Assembly (NCBI GenBank): GCA_025451235.1
Contig: JANWKT010000007.1
Location: forward strand, 124,001-188,000
Source of the DNA: Flavobacteriales bacterium
GTDB taxonomy: Bacteria; Bacteroidota; Bacteroidia; CAIKAF01
DNA length: 64,000 nucleotides
Direction: 5' to 3'
The stretch's first letter is position 1, and each line of letters begins with the position of its first letter. Shown one piece after another: positions 7,494 through 40,895 of the stretch. Under the pieces are notes generated by a model. That model was not told where the DNA came from. It saw only the letters and a list, made by a program, of their open reading frames with translations, and did no database searches. A program made the position numbers and the translations under genes.

Positions 7494-7517
7494 TCATCGC
7501 ACTTTGATCAATGGCAC
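7486..7517. terminator. Hairpin at the junction of two convergent genes
   Basis: GTGCC-TGATCA at 7486-7496 pairs with TGATCA (7505-7510) then GGCAC (7513-7517), with a 2-base bulge and an 8-base loop. The stops of the plus gene (7493) and the minus gene (7494) both lie inside it. There is no T-run on either side, so it may insulate convergent transcripts rather than act as a classical terminator. Confidence 0.45.
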
Positions 7518-9368
7518 ATATTGCTTGAGAATGCTTACCTGGTCTGCAGGTGATTTTCCGACCAACATGGATTTTTTGCCCACATGTATTTCAGAAGGAA
7601 GCATTTGTAAAAGATTGATAATATAATTTGCCTTTACAGCAAAAGCTACATTATCGGCATTCACCAATTTTGAATTCACCACTCCAATCACATTCCCATC
7701 CAGATCGAACAAAGGTCCACCACTATTGCCAGGCTGTACCGGAACACTTATCTGATAGGCCAGTAATTCCCCTTTAAACCCACTTCTGGCATTGATGGTA
7801 CCCTCGGTGAACTTGAGCTCGTTGCCCAATGTGCTCATGGCATAGGGATATCCCAACGCATAAACATTTGATCCAACGGAAGCAAGATTGGTTTGAAGGA
7901 TAAATGGAATGTATTCATATTTTTTAAAGGTGGAATCCGTTACCTTCAATACGGCCAGGTCCGATTTTTCATCTGTTATCATTACCTCACAACGATAGGA
8001 GATCCAGCTTCCATCCCTGATCACATCCGCTTCAATTTCTGTTGCATCATCCACTACGTGATAATTGGTAACGATATACCCTTCCGTACTTACCATAAAT
8101 CCTGAGCCGGAAGATCTCCATGGCTTTTCAATTTCTTTTGAATCAATATCGGCTGAAACAAAAGGCGAATTGATCTCTGTTTTGATATTTAGCTCCGATA
8201 CCTGAATGGCCTCTTTGTCGTCCACAAAAAATCCCAGGTAATCACCCTGTAGATCAGTAGCTGCTCTTTTATAGATCACTGTGTTTTTACCGAGGTATTT
8301 TAAGGTATCCTTATAATGTGAAACCGAAATTTCGTAGAGGTCAGCTGAATTTCCTCCCTTTGATTTATATCCAAAATTATAGTTATAGTTACTCGAGGTA
8401 ATAGAACCTTCAGTAACTATATTCTTTTCACCCGCTATTATGGAACCGATTTGGTAATTACCCTGTGGATCTATAATAAAGAACTCATAATTTTTGGCAT
8501 CCCTATAAGCAAAAACAAGTCCACTTTTCTTTTTTGATTTTTTGTTCTTATGCACAAGGTCCAAGTCAATGCGGAAGAATTTAGCATAATCAAGCGCCTT
8601 AAAATATATTTTACAACCTCCTTTGGGGCCTGCTTTTACCAAAAGCCCTTGTTTTTCATTGAGATGCGTGCTAAAACCCATACTGTCTTTTTTCTCATTG
8701 AATCCTTTTACATCCGCATACGAATCTAATCTATAATCAGAACCTGAAGAATAATAGGATTTATCATCATCTCCCAGGATAGATGCCATCGTATAATCGT
8801 AATACCACTTCTTTTTAAAGGTCGACGGTATCTTGAATTTATACATATCCTGGCTCGTACATTCTCCGTATTTATTACAATAGATAGATTGGGTACCTAC
8901 CACATATCCATCATCCAGTACGGCATAGTTTTTCAGCAATCCATTGTCGTACCATTGCAAAAAGAGTCCATCAACAATACCCATCCGGTAGGTAAACTGG
9001 TATTTCAGGTTGCCGTTGTCGTACCAGCCACTGGTAGGACCATTGATGGTGCCATTTTGGTAATAGGCTGTTTTTTTCTTTTTACCATTGGGATAGAACC
9101 AGGTACACTGCCCCTGGTAACTATTATCTTCGGGATTGTTTTTATTATAATTAAAAAACTGTCCTTCCCATTCGGGCTCTCCATTCACATAAAATTGCTT
9201 CACCATGCCAGATGGTTTGCCTGCATTGTCATAATTGATCACCCTATAATAAATAGCTACTGATGAATCACATTGCTTGCGATCCTTTCCTAGGAATTCT
9301 TTAGTGGTTTTTTGGGCAAAAGCAATAGAGCAGAGAGAGAAAATGCACAACAAGTATATCTTTTTCAT
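7494..9368 (-). CDS. Secreted MORN-repeat / trypsin-like serine protease fusion
   Basis: 624 aa from the ATG at 9368 (a TTG two codons upstream is a poorer start), with signal peptide 1-18 (LLCIFSLCSIAFAQ). Residues about 50-165 hold YwqK/MORN-type repeats (WFYPNGKKKK, WYDNGNLKYQF, QWYDNGLLKNY). A central beta-sandwich-like region (about 200-400, with FRIDLDL, GLVFAYRDAKNYEFFII) resembles LamG/DUF1080-type jelly rolls. The C-terminal 210 residues are an HtrA-like trypsin domain with an intact triad: His437 in TNYHVV, Asp470 in SDLAVL and Ser549 in GNSGGP. No PDZ domain follows. It probably acts in the periplasm or at the surface; the MORN repeats may bind ligand or membrane. This domain order is unusual. 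Confidence 0.85.
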   Translation of the reverse strand: MKKIYLLCIFSLCSIAFAQKTTKEFLGKDRKQCDSSVAIYYRVINYDNAGKPSGMVKQFYVNGEPEWEGQFFNYNKNNPEDNSYQGQCTWFYPNGKKKKTAYYQNGTINGPTSGWYDNGNLKYQFTYRMGIVDGLFLQWYDNGLLKNYAVLDDGYVVGTQSIYCNKYGECTSQDMYKFKIPSTFKKKWYYDYTMASILGDDDKSYYSSGSDYRLDSYADVKGFNEKKDSMGFSTHLNEKQGLLVKAGPKGGCKIYFKALDYAKFFRIDLDLVHKNKKSKKKSGLVFAYRDAKNYEFFIIDPQGNYQIGSIIAGEKNIVTEGSITSSNYNYNFGYKSKGGNSADLYEISVSHYKDTLKYLGKNTVIYKRAATDLQGDYLGFFVDDKEAIQVSELNIKTEINSPFVSADIDSKEIEKPWRSSGSGFMVSTEGYIVTNYHVVDDATEIEADVIRDGSWISYRCEVMITDEKSDLAVLKVTDSTFKKYEYIPFILQTNLASVGSNVYALGYPYAMSTLGNELKFTEGTINARSGFKGELLAYQISVPVQPGNSGGPLFDLDGNVIGVVNSKLVNADNVAFAVKANYIINLLQMLPSEIHVGKKSMLVGKSPADQVSILKQYVPLIKVR

Positions 9369-9505
9369 AATCAATAACGCTGAAAATTACATGTATTCAA
9401 CGCTGCAAAGTATGAAATGGTACATTAATAAATAAAAAAAAACGTTAGAAAATGATGGTTTTTTAGGAATGATATAACTACCGTTTGCTACCCAACTGCT
9501 CGTAT

Positions 9506-11682: not shown

Positions 11683-11995
11683 TTCTATAACTCAATTCAA
11701 TTGTTGCAAATGTAATGGAATAAAGGTAAATATAATCATAGCTTAATATCCACGATTGATGGCTCACAAAGGATGGCTTATATAGGTTGGATGGTTCGAA
11801 TATTAGACCATTTAATCCGTAAGCCAATATTTCTGAACCCAAATTAAAGTACTTATTATAAGATATTTAAGTTTAAATATTTTGTAGGTTTTACACAAAC
11901 CATATAATTCTACACGTAATATATTTGGATTTGAGGCTATCAGGGATTCAGAACTGGATTTACCTTTGACTTAAACTTAAAAACACAACAACATT
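11683..11995. other. Divergent intergenic region between the E1 gene and the lipoprotein array
   Basis: 313 bases, very AT-rich, with no credible gene. On the minus strand TACATTTG (11707-11714) fits the Bacteroidota -7 motif TAnnTTTG for the E1 gene. On the plus strand TACCTTTG at 11961-11968 fits the same motif for the first lipoprotein of the array, 27 bases before its ATG. I see no -33 TTTG at the ideal distance for either. Confidence 0.5.
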
Positions 11996-12388
11996 ATGCA
12001 AAAAAGAACATTAGTAATCGTTGCCGCTATCGCGGTTTTATTAGCATCCTGCTCACCAGCACAAGTTGCTTCAGGCACATTCACCGGAAGTTATTCTGCA
12101 TCTGGAGTTCCAAGTACAAGTGGAACTGCAACCGTTACGGTAAGTGAAAATGGAGCCAATGCAGTAAATATTGTAGCTTCTTCATCTGGTAATCCCGACA
12201 TTACAGCCAACAATGTTGCTGTTACCAAAATTGCCATCCCTGGAATTACTCAGGTATCTTTTAGCCTGGGAGGTGATGTGGATGTTGACGGCTATGTAGT
12301 AGAAACAGCAGGTATCAAAACCATTTCCGTTTCAATCGACAACAATATAGATACAACTTATATTTCATTCTCCGGAACTAAGTTATAA
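11996..12388 (+). CDS. Small lipoprotein, array copy 1
   Basis: 130 aa. Lipobox LLASC places the lipidated Cys at residue 19, as in four other members of this array. The mature part is a Ser/Thr/Gly/Asn-rich, all-beta-looking domain of about 110 residues. Its family marks are GTFTGSYSASGVPSTSG near the N-terminus, ENGANAVNI, then SSGNPDITANNV, and the ending SFSGTKL. Copies 2 and 5 share the SxGNPD block, so these three form a subgroup. Being lipidated, it sits in the inner or outer membrane; surface exposure cannot be judged. No database family comes to mind. Two terminators follow it. Confidence 0.8.
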   Translation: MQKRTLVIVAAIAVLLASCSPAQVASGTFTGSYSASGVPSTSGTATVTVSENGANAVNIVASSSGNPDITANNVAVTKIAIPGITQVSFSLGGDVDVDGYVVETAGIKTISVSIDNNIDTTYISFSGTKL

Positions 12389-12414
12389 TCCCCGTTTAAG
12401 ACACTCATTCAAGC

Positions 12415-12456
12415 AAAAGGATCTTCCGATCGGTCATTGGCCTGGGAGGTCCTTTT
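12415..12456 (+). terminator. Rho-independent terminator after array copy 1
   Basis: A 13-bp stem, AAAAGGATCTTCC at 12415-12427 against GGGAGGTCCTTTT at 12444-12456, with two G-U pairs and a 16-base loop, ends in a T-run. Confidence 0.75.
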
Positions 12457-12486
12457 CTCAACTCTGTAAACAAACACCTAGTGTGG

Positions 12487-12532
12487 GACCAAACATTTCG
12501 GGCTGGGAGGCCGTGTGTTTGGTCTTTTTTTC
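12487..12532 (+). terminator. Second terminator in the gap after array copy 1
   Basis: GACCAAACA at 12487-12495 pairs perfectly with TGTTTGGTC at 12516-12524 and runs into a stretch of T. The loop shares the word GGCTGGGAGG with the loop of the terminator just upstream, which may reflect a local duplication. There is no gene between the two terminators. Confidence 0.75.
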
Positions 12533-12602
12533 CCGTTCTTTAAAATAAAAAAAGAGCATACCATATTTTTTCTGATATTTGTGAAACACAATCAACTAAC
12601 TC

Positions 12603-12989
12603 ATGAAAAAGCTCTTGATCATTACTTCAGCCCTGGCCCTTGGTTTTTTAGCGGCATGTACTCCTGCTCAATCTGTATCCGGAACGTATACCGGAACTTA
12701 TAGCGGTTCAGGAATGCCTGTTAACTCAGGAAACGCCACGGTTGTTATTTCGGAAAATGGTGCAAACAATGTACATATGGTAATACAATCAAGTGGGAAC
12801 CCGGATTATACTGCTAGTAACGTAACGGTTGTAAGGACCAGCATTTTTGGTATTACTTACTATAGTTTTAACCTGAATAATTATCCGTGGACCGTAAATG
12901 GTGATTGGTTCGAAACAAGTAGGGAACTGGACTTTACACTCACAAATGATACTTCGTTCTTTAATATTCATTTTACAGGAATAAAATAA
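12603..12989 (+). CDS. Small lipoprotein, array copy 2
   Basis: 128 aa with lipobox FLAAC (Cys19). It is clearly homologous to copy 1: GTYTGTYSGSGMPVNSG, ENGANNVHM, SSGNPDYTASNV and the ending HFTGIK. It starts 70 bases after the second terminator, so it has its own promoter. No terminator is obvious between this gene and copy 3, which has separate promoter-like motifs. Function unknown; the fold is probably a small beta-barrel or sandwich, judged only from the alternating polar/hydrophobic pattern. Confidence 0.8.
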   Translation: MKKLLIITSALALGFLAACTPAQSVSGTYTGTYSGSGMPVNSGNATVVISENGANNVHMVIQSSGNPDYTASNVTVVRTSIFGITYYSFNLNNYPWTVNGDWFETSRELDFTLTNDTSFFNIHFTGIK

Positions 12990-12999
12990 CAGAGGATCG

Positions 13000-13030
13000 G
13001 TTGATTCTCACATTTTAAATGCTAAATTTG
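13000..13030 (+). promoter_or_regulatory. Promoter of array copy 3
   Basis: GTTG at 13000-13003, 19 bases, then TAAATTTG at 13023-13030, a full match to the Bacteroidota -7 motif TAnnTTTG with one change in the -33 TTTG. A second TAAATTTG lies at 13035-13042. The gene starts at 13061. Confidence 0.6.
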
Positions 13031-13060
13031 CGATTAAATTTGAACTCAAAACAATTATTT

Positions 13061-13450
13061 ATGAAAAAAATTACAGCCTTTTTTATTGCAGCAGGGATTC
13101 TTTTTATGGTATCCTGCGAAACTGCCAGTATGAAATCAGAAGGTAATTATAGTGGTACCTATACTTACCAATCTAACAATACCCCTGGGACTGCCAATGT
13201 GATCAAAGCCACTGATAATACCGTGAATCTGACAGTTAGTGTTCCTAGCATCAGTATTAACTCAACTGCCAGTGCCGTTAACGTTGCCATAAGTGGTGAC
13301 AATGTTACCTTCAGCTTTACCGGTACAGGAACTGCTGATGGAACGATTACTGCCTTGAGTGGAACACTTACTGGAAGTACTTTGACTTTCTCTTCTACTA
13401 TTTACTATTTTGGATTTCCAGTTGGTTTCGCATTTACCGGAACTAAGTAG
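13061..13450 (+). CDS. Small lipoprotein, array copy 3
   Basis: 129 aa from the ATG at 13061, where MKKITAFF opens a lipoprotein signal ending FMVSC (Cys19). The upstream ATG at 13019 is rejected because it lies within the promoter motifs and spoils the signal peptide. The mature domain keeps GNYSGTYTY near the start and AFTGTK at the end, but lacks the SxGNPD block of copies 1, 2 and 5. It groups more with copy 4, sharing a GTADGTITALSGTLTG-type strand near the C-terminus. A strong terminator follows. Confidence 0.8.
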   Translation: MKKITAFFIAAGILFMVSCETASMKSEGNYSGTYTYQSNNTPGTANVIKATDNTVNLTVSVPSISINSTASAVNVAISGDNVTFSFTGTGTADGTITALSGTLTGSTLTFSSTIYYFGFPVGFAFTGTK

Positions 13451-13477
13451 TAATAAATACCCAATATTTGAATAATA

Positions 13478-13512
13478 AATAAGCAGTGCCAACCAGCACT
13501 GCTTATTTTATT
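13478..13512 (+). terminator. Terminator after array copy 3
   Basis: AATAAGCAGTGC at 13478-13489 pairs perfectly over 12 bp with GCACTGCTTATT at 13496-13507, with a 6-base loop, followed by T-rich sequence. The A-rich left side means it could also stop transcription from the other strand. Confidence 0.85.
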
Positions 13513-13560
13513 TGAAGTAAAAATCAATATATTTGTATAAATCTGTTTAAACATAATACT

Positions 13561-13947
13561 ATGAAAAAAATACAATTGTTTTTAATTGCAGGGTTTCTAT
13601 TGGTCCTGGCCTCTTGTGCAAAACCATCTGAAAAAGCGGCAGGGACTTATAATGGAACAGCTACCGTTAATAGCACCAATTATGCCGGTACATGTACCGT
13701 AACTGCGAATGGTGATAATATGGTGAACATGACCATGACAGCCAACAGCGTTACCTATAGTGTAAATGGTGTTTCTGCTTCTCTTTCCAATGATGTGGTT
13801 ACATTTAGCTATACTTCTTCCTCCACTACTTCAGGTGATATTGTTGCTGTAAGCGGAAATGTAACAGGAAATACCATTACCCTTGCTATTACCATCATGT
13901 TATCAAACCCTACTACTTATCCCGTTTCATTTTCGGGCACCAAGTAG
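13561..13947 (+). CDS. Small lipoprotein, array copy 4
   Basis: 128 aa with lipobox LASC at Cys19 (MKKIQLFLIAG start, almost the same signal peptide as copy 5). The mature part opens AAGTYNGTATVNSTNYAGT, is very rich in Thr, Ser, Asn and Val, has a GDIVAVSGNVTGN strand matching copy 3, and ends SFSGTK. Upstream, TATATTTG at 13528-13535 matches the -7 motif, although no -33 element is at the right distance. A terminator follows the gene, so it is an independent unit. Confidence 0.8.
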   Translation: MKKIQLFLIAGFLLVLASCAKPSEKAAGTYNGTATVNSTNYAGTCTVTANGDNMVNMTMTANSVTYSVNGVSASLSNDVVTFSYTSSSTTSGDIVAVSGNVTGNTITLAITIMLSNPTTYPVSFSGTK

Positions 13948-13970
13948 TCCATACTTTTATAACTATAAGT

Positions 13971-14002
13971 AAAACAGCCCTTTTCAGGGCTGTTTTTTTT
14001 TT
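13971..14002 (+). terminator. Terminator after array copy 4
   Basis: AAAACAGCCC at 13971-13980 pairs perfectly over 10 bp with GGGCTGTTTT at 13987-13996, with a 6-base loop, followed by a further run of T. Confidence 0.9.
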
Positions 14003-14043
14003 AGGCATAGAACTTGTATATTGGTTGGGCTAAATGTAAAACT

Positions 14044-14433
14044 ATGAAGAGAATCCAATTGTTTTTATTGGCCGGGATCGTTGTGTTCATGGCCTCTTGC
14101 CAAACTGTGGCAGAAAAAGTATCCGGTAATTATTCTGGCACCTACAGTGCAAACGGAGTTCCAGTAACTTCTGGTAGTGGAACCCTTACCCTTACCCCGG
14201 ATGGAGATAAAAGGGTGGATATGGTGTTTGTATCTGCCGGAAACCCTGATATTACTATTCAGGACGTAGATATCACCGATATTTTCGGCCAGTATATCTT
14301 CAATCTGGACAATGACCAGGGTGGAACCATCGATGTAGACGGAACCATAGCCAGTGGCTTTGTGTTAGCTCTTAGCTATGACAATAGCGTTTCAGGTGTT
14401 TCGCTATCTCTGGCCGGGTTTGGAAAACAATAG
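14044..14433 (+). CDS. Small lipoprotein, array copy 5
   Basis: 129 aa from the ATG at 14044 (MKRIQLFLLAG), lipobox FMASC with Cys19. Family blocks are GNYSGTYSANGVPVTSG, PDGDKRVDM and SAGNPDITIQDV; the C-terminus is SLAGFGKQ instead of the usual F-S/T-G-T-K. It is closest to copies 1 and 2 in the mature domain but to copy 4 in the signal peptide, which suggests recombination between copies. No T-run terminator is seen directly after it. Confidence 0.8.
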   Translation: MKRIQLFLLAGIVVFMASCQTVAEKVSGNYSGTYSANGVPVTSGSGTLTLTPDGDKRVDMVFVSAGNPDITIQDVDITDIFGQYIFNLDNDQGGTIDVDGTIASGFVLALSYDNSVSGVSLSLAGFGKQ

Positions 14434-40514: not shown

Positions 40515-40895
40515 ATGAAAACCAACATTTTCCTTATTACGCTGTTGGCTGCCGCATTGTGCAGCTGCCAGCAAGAAGATTATGCCCCTAAGTTAGCAGG
40601 AACCTATTCAGGTACCTATTCTTCTCCAACAGATACTTTTACCGGGAATCTTTACATTTCCACCATCTCAAAAAACAAAGTGAAAGTTACCTTATTAACC
40701 GACTCCGGTTTTGCCACTGTAACCTCTAGCAATGTTTTAGTGGATGATGACGGTCCAGATCAATACAGTTTTATGGATATAAATGGAGAGATCTATCATG
40801 TGCTTGGAAGGTATAACCACAAAGACAACTTGATTGAACTTAGTGGCTTCTATAATACAATGCCATCCACAAATTTTGAAGGATCAAAACAATAA
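40515..40895 (+). CDS. Small lipoprotein, dispersed sixth member of the 11996-14433 family
   Basis: 126 aa from the ATG at 40515, lipobox ALCSC (Cys18). The start of the mature domain, KLAGTYSGTYSSPTDTFTG, matches the GxYxGTYS block of the array copies, and the end FEGSKQ matches their F-S-G-T-K ending. The middle has diverged and lacks the SxGNPD block. Upstream in-frame sequence is rejected because it crosses a terminator and the previous gene. Its stop adjoins the convergent gene at 40896 with no gap. Confidence 0.75.
   Translation: MKTNIFLITLLAAALCSCQQEDYAPKLAGTYSGTYSSPTDTFTGNLYISTISKNKVKVTLLTDSGFATVTSSNVLVDDDGPDQYSFMDINGEIYHVLGRYNHKDNLIELSGFYNTMPSTNFEGSKQ

Follow-up and report, generated by a model that had tools for sequence, protein, structure and literature searches.

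The window analysed here, a stretch of 64,000 nucleotides from the genome of a Flavobacteriales bacterium, contains a row of five small lipoprotein genes (11996-14433, + strand), which raises the question of what these proteins are and why several of them lie side by side. They had originally been predicted to be recent tandem duplicates, carrying a domain that could not be assigned to a family and possibly under selection for variation at the cell surface.

The array and its two subtypes

The row consists of five head-to-tail open reading frames of 128-130 residues, located where the original prediction had placed them. A further copy lies elsewhere in the window.

11996..12388, + strand: copy 1, 130 aa lipoprotein with Cys19, predicted calycin-like barrel (AlphaFold2 pLDDT 89.2, eight strands)
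12603..12989, + strand: copy 2, 128 aa lipoprotein
13061..13450, + strand: copy 3, 129 aa lipoprotein starting at ATG 13061; the frame is open, with another in-frame ATG, from 13019
13561..13947, + strand: copy 4, 128 aa lipoprotein (AlphaFold2 pLDDT 89.1, eight strands; top PDB match 3rwx)
14044..14433, + strand: copy 5, 129 aa lipoprotein starting at ATG 14044; the frame is open, with a TTG, from 14014
40515..40895, + strand: sixth, divergent copy, 126 aa, outside the array

Each array protein has a signal peptide ending in [LVIM]-[AVS]-[ASG]-C, with the lipobox at residues 16-19 reading LASC, LAAC, MVSC, LASC and MASC in copies 1 to 5; matches to the LPAM_1 model are below its cut-off. The mature domain starts with G-x-[YF]-x-G-[ST]-[YA] in all five and ends with F-[ST]-G-x-K in copies 1-4. 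Copies 1, 2 and 5 share the block S-[SA]-G-N-P-D, while copies 3 and 4 have a distinct C-terminal strand in common. These mature-domain features, together with Cys19, had all been described beforehand and were all confirmed in the sequence.

Local alignment scores of the mature domains were compared with those of 200 shuffles. The pairs with high z scores were 1-2 (29), 1-5 (24), 2-5 (24) and 3-4 (16). Scores across these groups were weaker: 8.2 for 4-5, 7.7 for 1-4, 4.7 for 1-3 and only 1.9 for 2-3, the weakest pair. Profiles of the groups 1/2/5 and 3/4 nevertheless match each other (hhalign 93%, score 42), and taken with the z scores this puts the likeness within the array beyond chance. The copies are thus tandem paralogues, as proposed, and form two subtypes of one barrel.

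The array is surrounded by housekeeping genes, and neither this nor any other neighbourhood read points to a ligand. At 7494-9374 on the - strand, 2.6 kb from copy 1, lies the gene for a secreted protein of 626 aa that has a Trypsin_2 domain and matches MORN repeats weakly.

Relationship to the PF13944 calycin-like family

Scans of the five array proteins against Pfam and NCBIfam gave only sub-threshold and mutually inconsistent matches, and a PDB profile search by sequence with the array family gave nothing usable. None of the five reaches the gathering cut-off of PF13944 (30 bits); the best PF13944 score among the paralogues, 21.7 bits (E 2.7e-4), belongs to a copy on another contig (C8). 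In a search of 395 genomes of the class, the top match outside the family was a lipoprotein with two domains, identified by Pfam as a PF13944 protein (E 1.9e-30). The Pfam model of PF13944 found nothing in relatives or in control genomes, which makes its absence there uninformative, and PF13944 members were collected from a Bacteroidales genus instead.

The signal peptide was excluded as the cause of the match by comparing 21 mature domains of the array family with 20 PF13944 domains. The two profiles aligned over 97 columns (hhalign 96.0%, E 4.2e-9, score 52). With mature parts only, hhalign gave 96.0-96.5% and scores of 52-56, which indicates homology over the whole domain, as against 14 for reversed profiles and 14.7 for the best of 60 column shuffles. 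The array alone gave 94.5% against PF13944, and the dispersed copies alone 95.3%. Lipocalin_4 (PF13648), a family of common Bacteroidota lipocalin-like lipoproteins that are also small, lipid-anchored barrels, was considered as the parent family and rejected: a comparison of the array profile with same-class Lipocalin_4 members found no similarity (hhalign probability 0.15%, score 10).

AlphaFold2 was used to predict structures of copies 1 and 4, using only proteins of the window and of one other genome of the same genus (the congener). The predictions were confident, eight-stranded barrels in both cases. The first Foldseek match of the copy 4 model is 3rwx (E 2.6e-4, TM 0.68, probability 1.00), which had independently been found by sequence as the PDB relative of PF13944 proteins; copy 4 is therefore predicted to form a 3rwx-like eight-stranded barrel. 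The copy 1 model matched generic small barrels (lipocalins, fatty-acid-binding proteins and nitrobindins), none below E 1e-3, and 3rwx is absent from its top 50 matches. These generic antiparallel β-barrels, with Foldseek probability up to 1.00, have only the fold in common with the array, since E exceeds 1e-3, TM is about 0.3-0.5, and no sequence motif of those families was found.

Taken together, the sequence profiles and the models give good support to the array family being a divergent subfamily, remotely homologous to the Bacteroidota calycin-like barrel PF13944, and this supplies the family to which the domain could not be matched earlier. The solved example of PF13944 is BF2706 of Bacteroides fragilis (PDB 3rwx), which like the array proteins belongs to a secreted Bacteroidota lipoprotein setting. 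Both families have a start of the form [IVA]-[AS]-x-T-Y-x-G, a central V-x-V strand, a G-T-V hairpin and a terminal F-x-G. They differ in that the array proteins have one domain of about 105 residues, whereas 3rwx has two; in that many of the collected PF13944 proteins have a CSDDD(D)/CGDDD N-terminus, which is missing from the array copies; and in that the array family has expanded, in tandem and by dispersal, to 13 copies, and scores below the Pfam cut-off. Literature searches found no functional study of PF13944 or BF2706. With no established role found for PF13944, the original prediction is not overturned by a family of established role.

The Thr/Ser/Asn-rich character of the sequences, noted originally, is explained by the outward-facing residues of a soluble barrel. 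The copy 1 model served to define the strands, and of the two alternating faces of each strand the more hydrophobic was picked. This face is rich in V/L/I/Y/F/G and more conserved (mean KD +0.80, entropy 1.91), while the opposite face is rich in T/S/N/D and more variable (mean KD -0.76, entropy 2.48); because the face was picked by hydrophobicity, only the difference in entropy is informative.

Extent, age and selection

A family profile search of the source genome (4.28 Mb) found 13 copies with E <= 2.4e-11. Five are in the array, one is at 40515-40895 of the window, and the other seven are on other contigs: two each on C34, C24 and C32, and one on C8. The congener (n=1, 77% complete) has at least nine matches. 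One of its nine matches is cut by a contig end and one has an in-frame TAG; the latter (L059 6059-6373) encodes a barrel lipoprotein interrupted near the C-terminal third, and is either a pseudogene or an assembly error. One strong match was found in another genus (g4), in one genome. The remaining 13 genomes of the taxonomic family gave no match at E <= 1e-4; the order-level sample consists of the same 16 genomes as the family-level one. Beyond these, the 395 genomes of the class gave only weak matches, several of which span just the signal-peptide half. A search for related loci with a tighter family alignment returned only JANWKQ010000002.1 ('Flavobacteriales bacterium CRAIB_MAG97'), the public version of the congener contig that carries the array. 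The five-gene row is thus a slice of a 13-copy lipoprotein family that is nearly confined to one genus among the genomes searched. The expansion is modest and ordinary in kind, and is not a new system.

An array occupies the corresponding position in the congener, where it precedes the same genes as in the window (peptidylprolyl isomerase, WbqC-like, signal peptidase I and SIS). Its make-up is A-1-4-5, compared to 1-2-3-4-5 in the source genome, so that the check on copy number proposed with the original prediction did reveal a difference; the congener contig starts 287 bases before A, and further copies may therefore be missing there. The correspondence, with positions in congener locus L057, is as follows.

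Copy 1: orthologue at 945-1343
Copy 2: syntenic place without an orthologue
Copy 3: syntenic place without an orthologue
Copy 4: orthologue at 1505-1891
Copy 5: orthologue at 2014-2382

A tree groups copies 1, 4 and 5 with these orthologues, with support of 95/94, 96/94 and 100/99. Identity is 60-68% between orthologues, 39-49% between the within-array paralogues tested, and 60-88% for flanking genes. Since the orthologues are one-to-one and syntenic, and the paralogues have diverged further than the orthologues, the comparison shows copies 1, 4 and 5 to predate the split of the two species. Copies 2 and 3 were either gained in the source genome or lost in the congener.

Recent tandem duplication, as first suggested, is therefore unsupported, the synonymous sites also being saturated. 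Nor was dN/dS elevated. The Nei-Gojobori method gave about 0.19 for copy 1 and 0.23 for copy 4 against their orthologues, values that are rough because dS is above 1; for copy 5 and three of the four flanking genes it could not be calculated at all. In the calculable pairs, copies 1 and 4, dN/dS is well below 1 and gives no sign of diversifying selection, and the divergence of the array copies is about that of the flanking genes.

Transcription, orientation and possible functions

Strong intrinsic terminators were found after three of the copies, and a candidate promoter element before one of them.

12485..12530, + strand: terminator after copy 1, hairpin of -22.1 kcal/mol followed by a U run (z -3.0)
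13478..13507, + strand: terminator after copy 3, hairpin with a perfectly paired 12-bp stem, followed by a U run (-16.8 kcal/mol, z -6.7)
13971..13996, + strand: terminator after copy 4, hairpin and U run (-15.7 kcal/mol, z -5.7)
13528..13535, + strand: TATATTTG, weak candidate for a -7 element of the Bacteroidota type, 25 nt before copy 4

These terminators rule out a single operon and indicate that the row forms several transcription units. There is only a weak hairpin after copy 2, so copies 2 and 3 may be cotranscribed. Candidate -7 elements similar to that before copy 4 occur at 11961 before copy 1, and at 13023 and 13035 before copy 3. The exact sequence TANNTTTG occurs 37 times on the + strand of the window, five of them in the 2.9 kb that include the array, and its presence upstream of copies 1, 3 and 4 weakly suggests that these may have promoters of their own. 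A sigma-70-type promoter scan gave no more matches than in shuffles, and Bacteroidota-type promoter scores were within background, except for the exact TANNTTTG elements.

Bacteroidota lipoproteins destined for the cell surface carry an export signal just after the Cys, of the type K-(D/E)2, Q-A-(D/E)2 or S-D-D-D-like, with at least two acidic residues (PMC5080379). Positions +2 to +6 of array copies 1-5 read SPAQV, TPAQS, ETASM, AKPSE and QTVAE, with 0-1 acidic residues, so the motif is absent from the array, although it may not be the motif used by this lineage. A SusD-like_3 (PF14322) protein, a possible yardstick for the signal, was not found in the source genome, which is 98% complete. 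Three dispersed copies (that at 40515 of the window and both on C32) have two acidic residues in this region. The array proteins are presumably located at the outer membrane, where they would most likely face the periplasm, their orientation being uncertain.

This bears on the suggestion that they are surface-exposed, variable lipoproteins, an antigen-like or phage-receptor-like repertoire selected for variation. The family is present in few genomes, its array differs in make-up between the two congeners, the variable parts are the outer strand face and loops, and the acidic residues of the three dispersed copies resemble surface-export signals. Set against this are the scarcity of acidic residues after the Cys in the array copies, the dN/dS of about 0.2 for copies 1 and 4, the similar divergence of the neighbouring genes, and the age of the paralogues. 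The selection for surface variation that was originally envisaged is accordingly not borne out, and we regard a repertoire of this kind as unlikely.

We rate it just as unlikely that the proteins inhibit envelope proteases by blocking their active sites with a small barrel, as staphostatins do, with tandem paralogues matching different proteases. Staphostatins offer a precedent: their fold is lipocalin-like, and in Bacteroides fragilis the genes for staphostatin-like proteins (116-138 aa) adjoin protease genes (PMC2873492). The Trypsin_2 protein 2.6 kb from copy 1 could be seen in the same light. However, in the source-genome neighbourhoods that were read, none of the copies has a recognisable protease gene as its direct neighbour, and the Pfam and NCBIfam scans gave no match to an inhibitor family.

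Least probable of the three is an accessory role in TonB-dependent uptake, for example of haem, which would follow the appearance of PF13944 proteins in Hmu-type loci (a calycin-like gene is present in Porphyromonas hmu loci; PMC12106395), but neither a TonB receptor nor HmuY was recognised near the array or in the other neighbourhoods read in the source genome. In the Bacteroidales genus sampled, a PF13944 gene adjoins an HmuY gene near a TonB-dependent receptor at two loci (L079 and L094), which suggests that it contributes to haem uptake in those bacteria, whereas most PF13944 genes of that genus adjoin glutamate synthase/NlpC-type genes instead.

On balance we favour the reading that the array belongs to a genus-level expansion of PF13944-type barrel lipoproteins, which would be periplasm-facing, for the most part separately transcribed, and act as a binding module. 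The signal peptide of each precursor would be cut by signal peptidase II at the lipobox Cys, giving a mature protein with a short linker and one eight-stranded up-and-down β-barrel of about 105 residues, tethered by its lipid to the outer membrane. The conserved alternate V/I/L/F/Y/G residues would form the barrel core, and the variable Thr/Ser/Asn/Asp residues the outer face. We infer that the barrel may bind a ligand or partner: it would either hold a small hydrophobic ligand, or dock a protein or envelope partner by its variable outer face. A filled core without a pocket is also conceivable. The paralogues would divide up ligands or conditions between them.

The only functional hint found comes from C34, where two barrel copies lie interspersed among members of a second family, membrane proteins confined to the genus, an adjacency that is kept in the congener. 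This second paralogous family of lipoproteins (L009 3696-7694 in the source genome; L059 4308-5926, on C36, in the congener) carries the motif K-R-R-Y-R-P-G-Y-H at the N-terminus and, at the C-terminal end, hydrophobic segments resembling membrane helices. The DNA encoding the motif occurs four times in the source genome, three times in the congener, and in 0/14 other genomes of the taxonomic family. A more ambitious proposal, which we consider rather improbable, is that some 13 periplasm-facing, separately transcribed single-barrel lipoproteins of the genus would each serve a different small hydrophobic ligand or envelope partner, as a bacterial counterpart of the lipocalin/odorant-binding-protein repertoire.

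A row of paralogues therefore need not imply recent duplication or surface antigen variation. A previously unrecognised lipoprotein family, nearly restricted to one genus, can now be placed in the calycin-like fold, and its 13 natural variants of a compact barrel of about 105 residues provide material for learning what a common, uncharacterised Bacteroidota domain binds.
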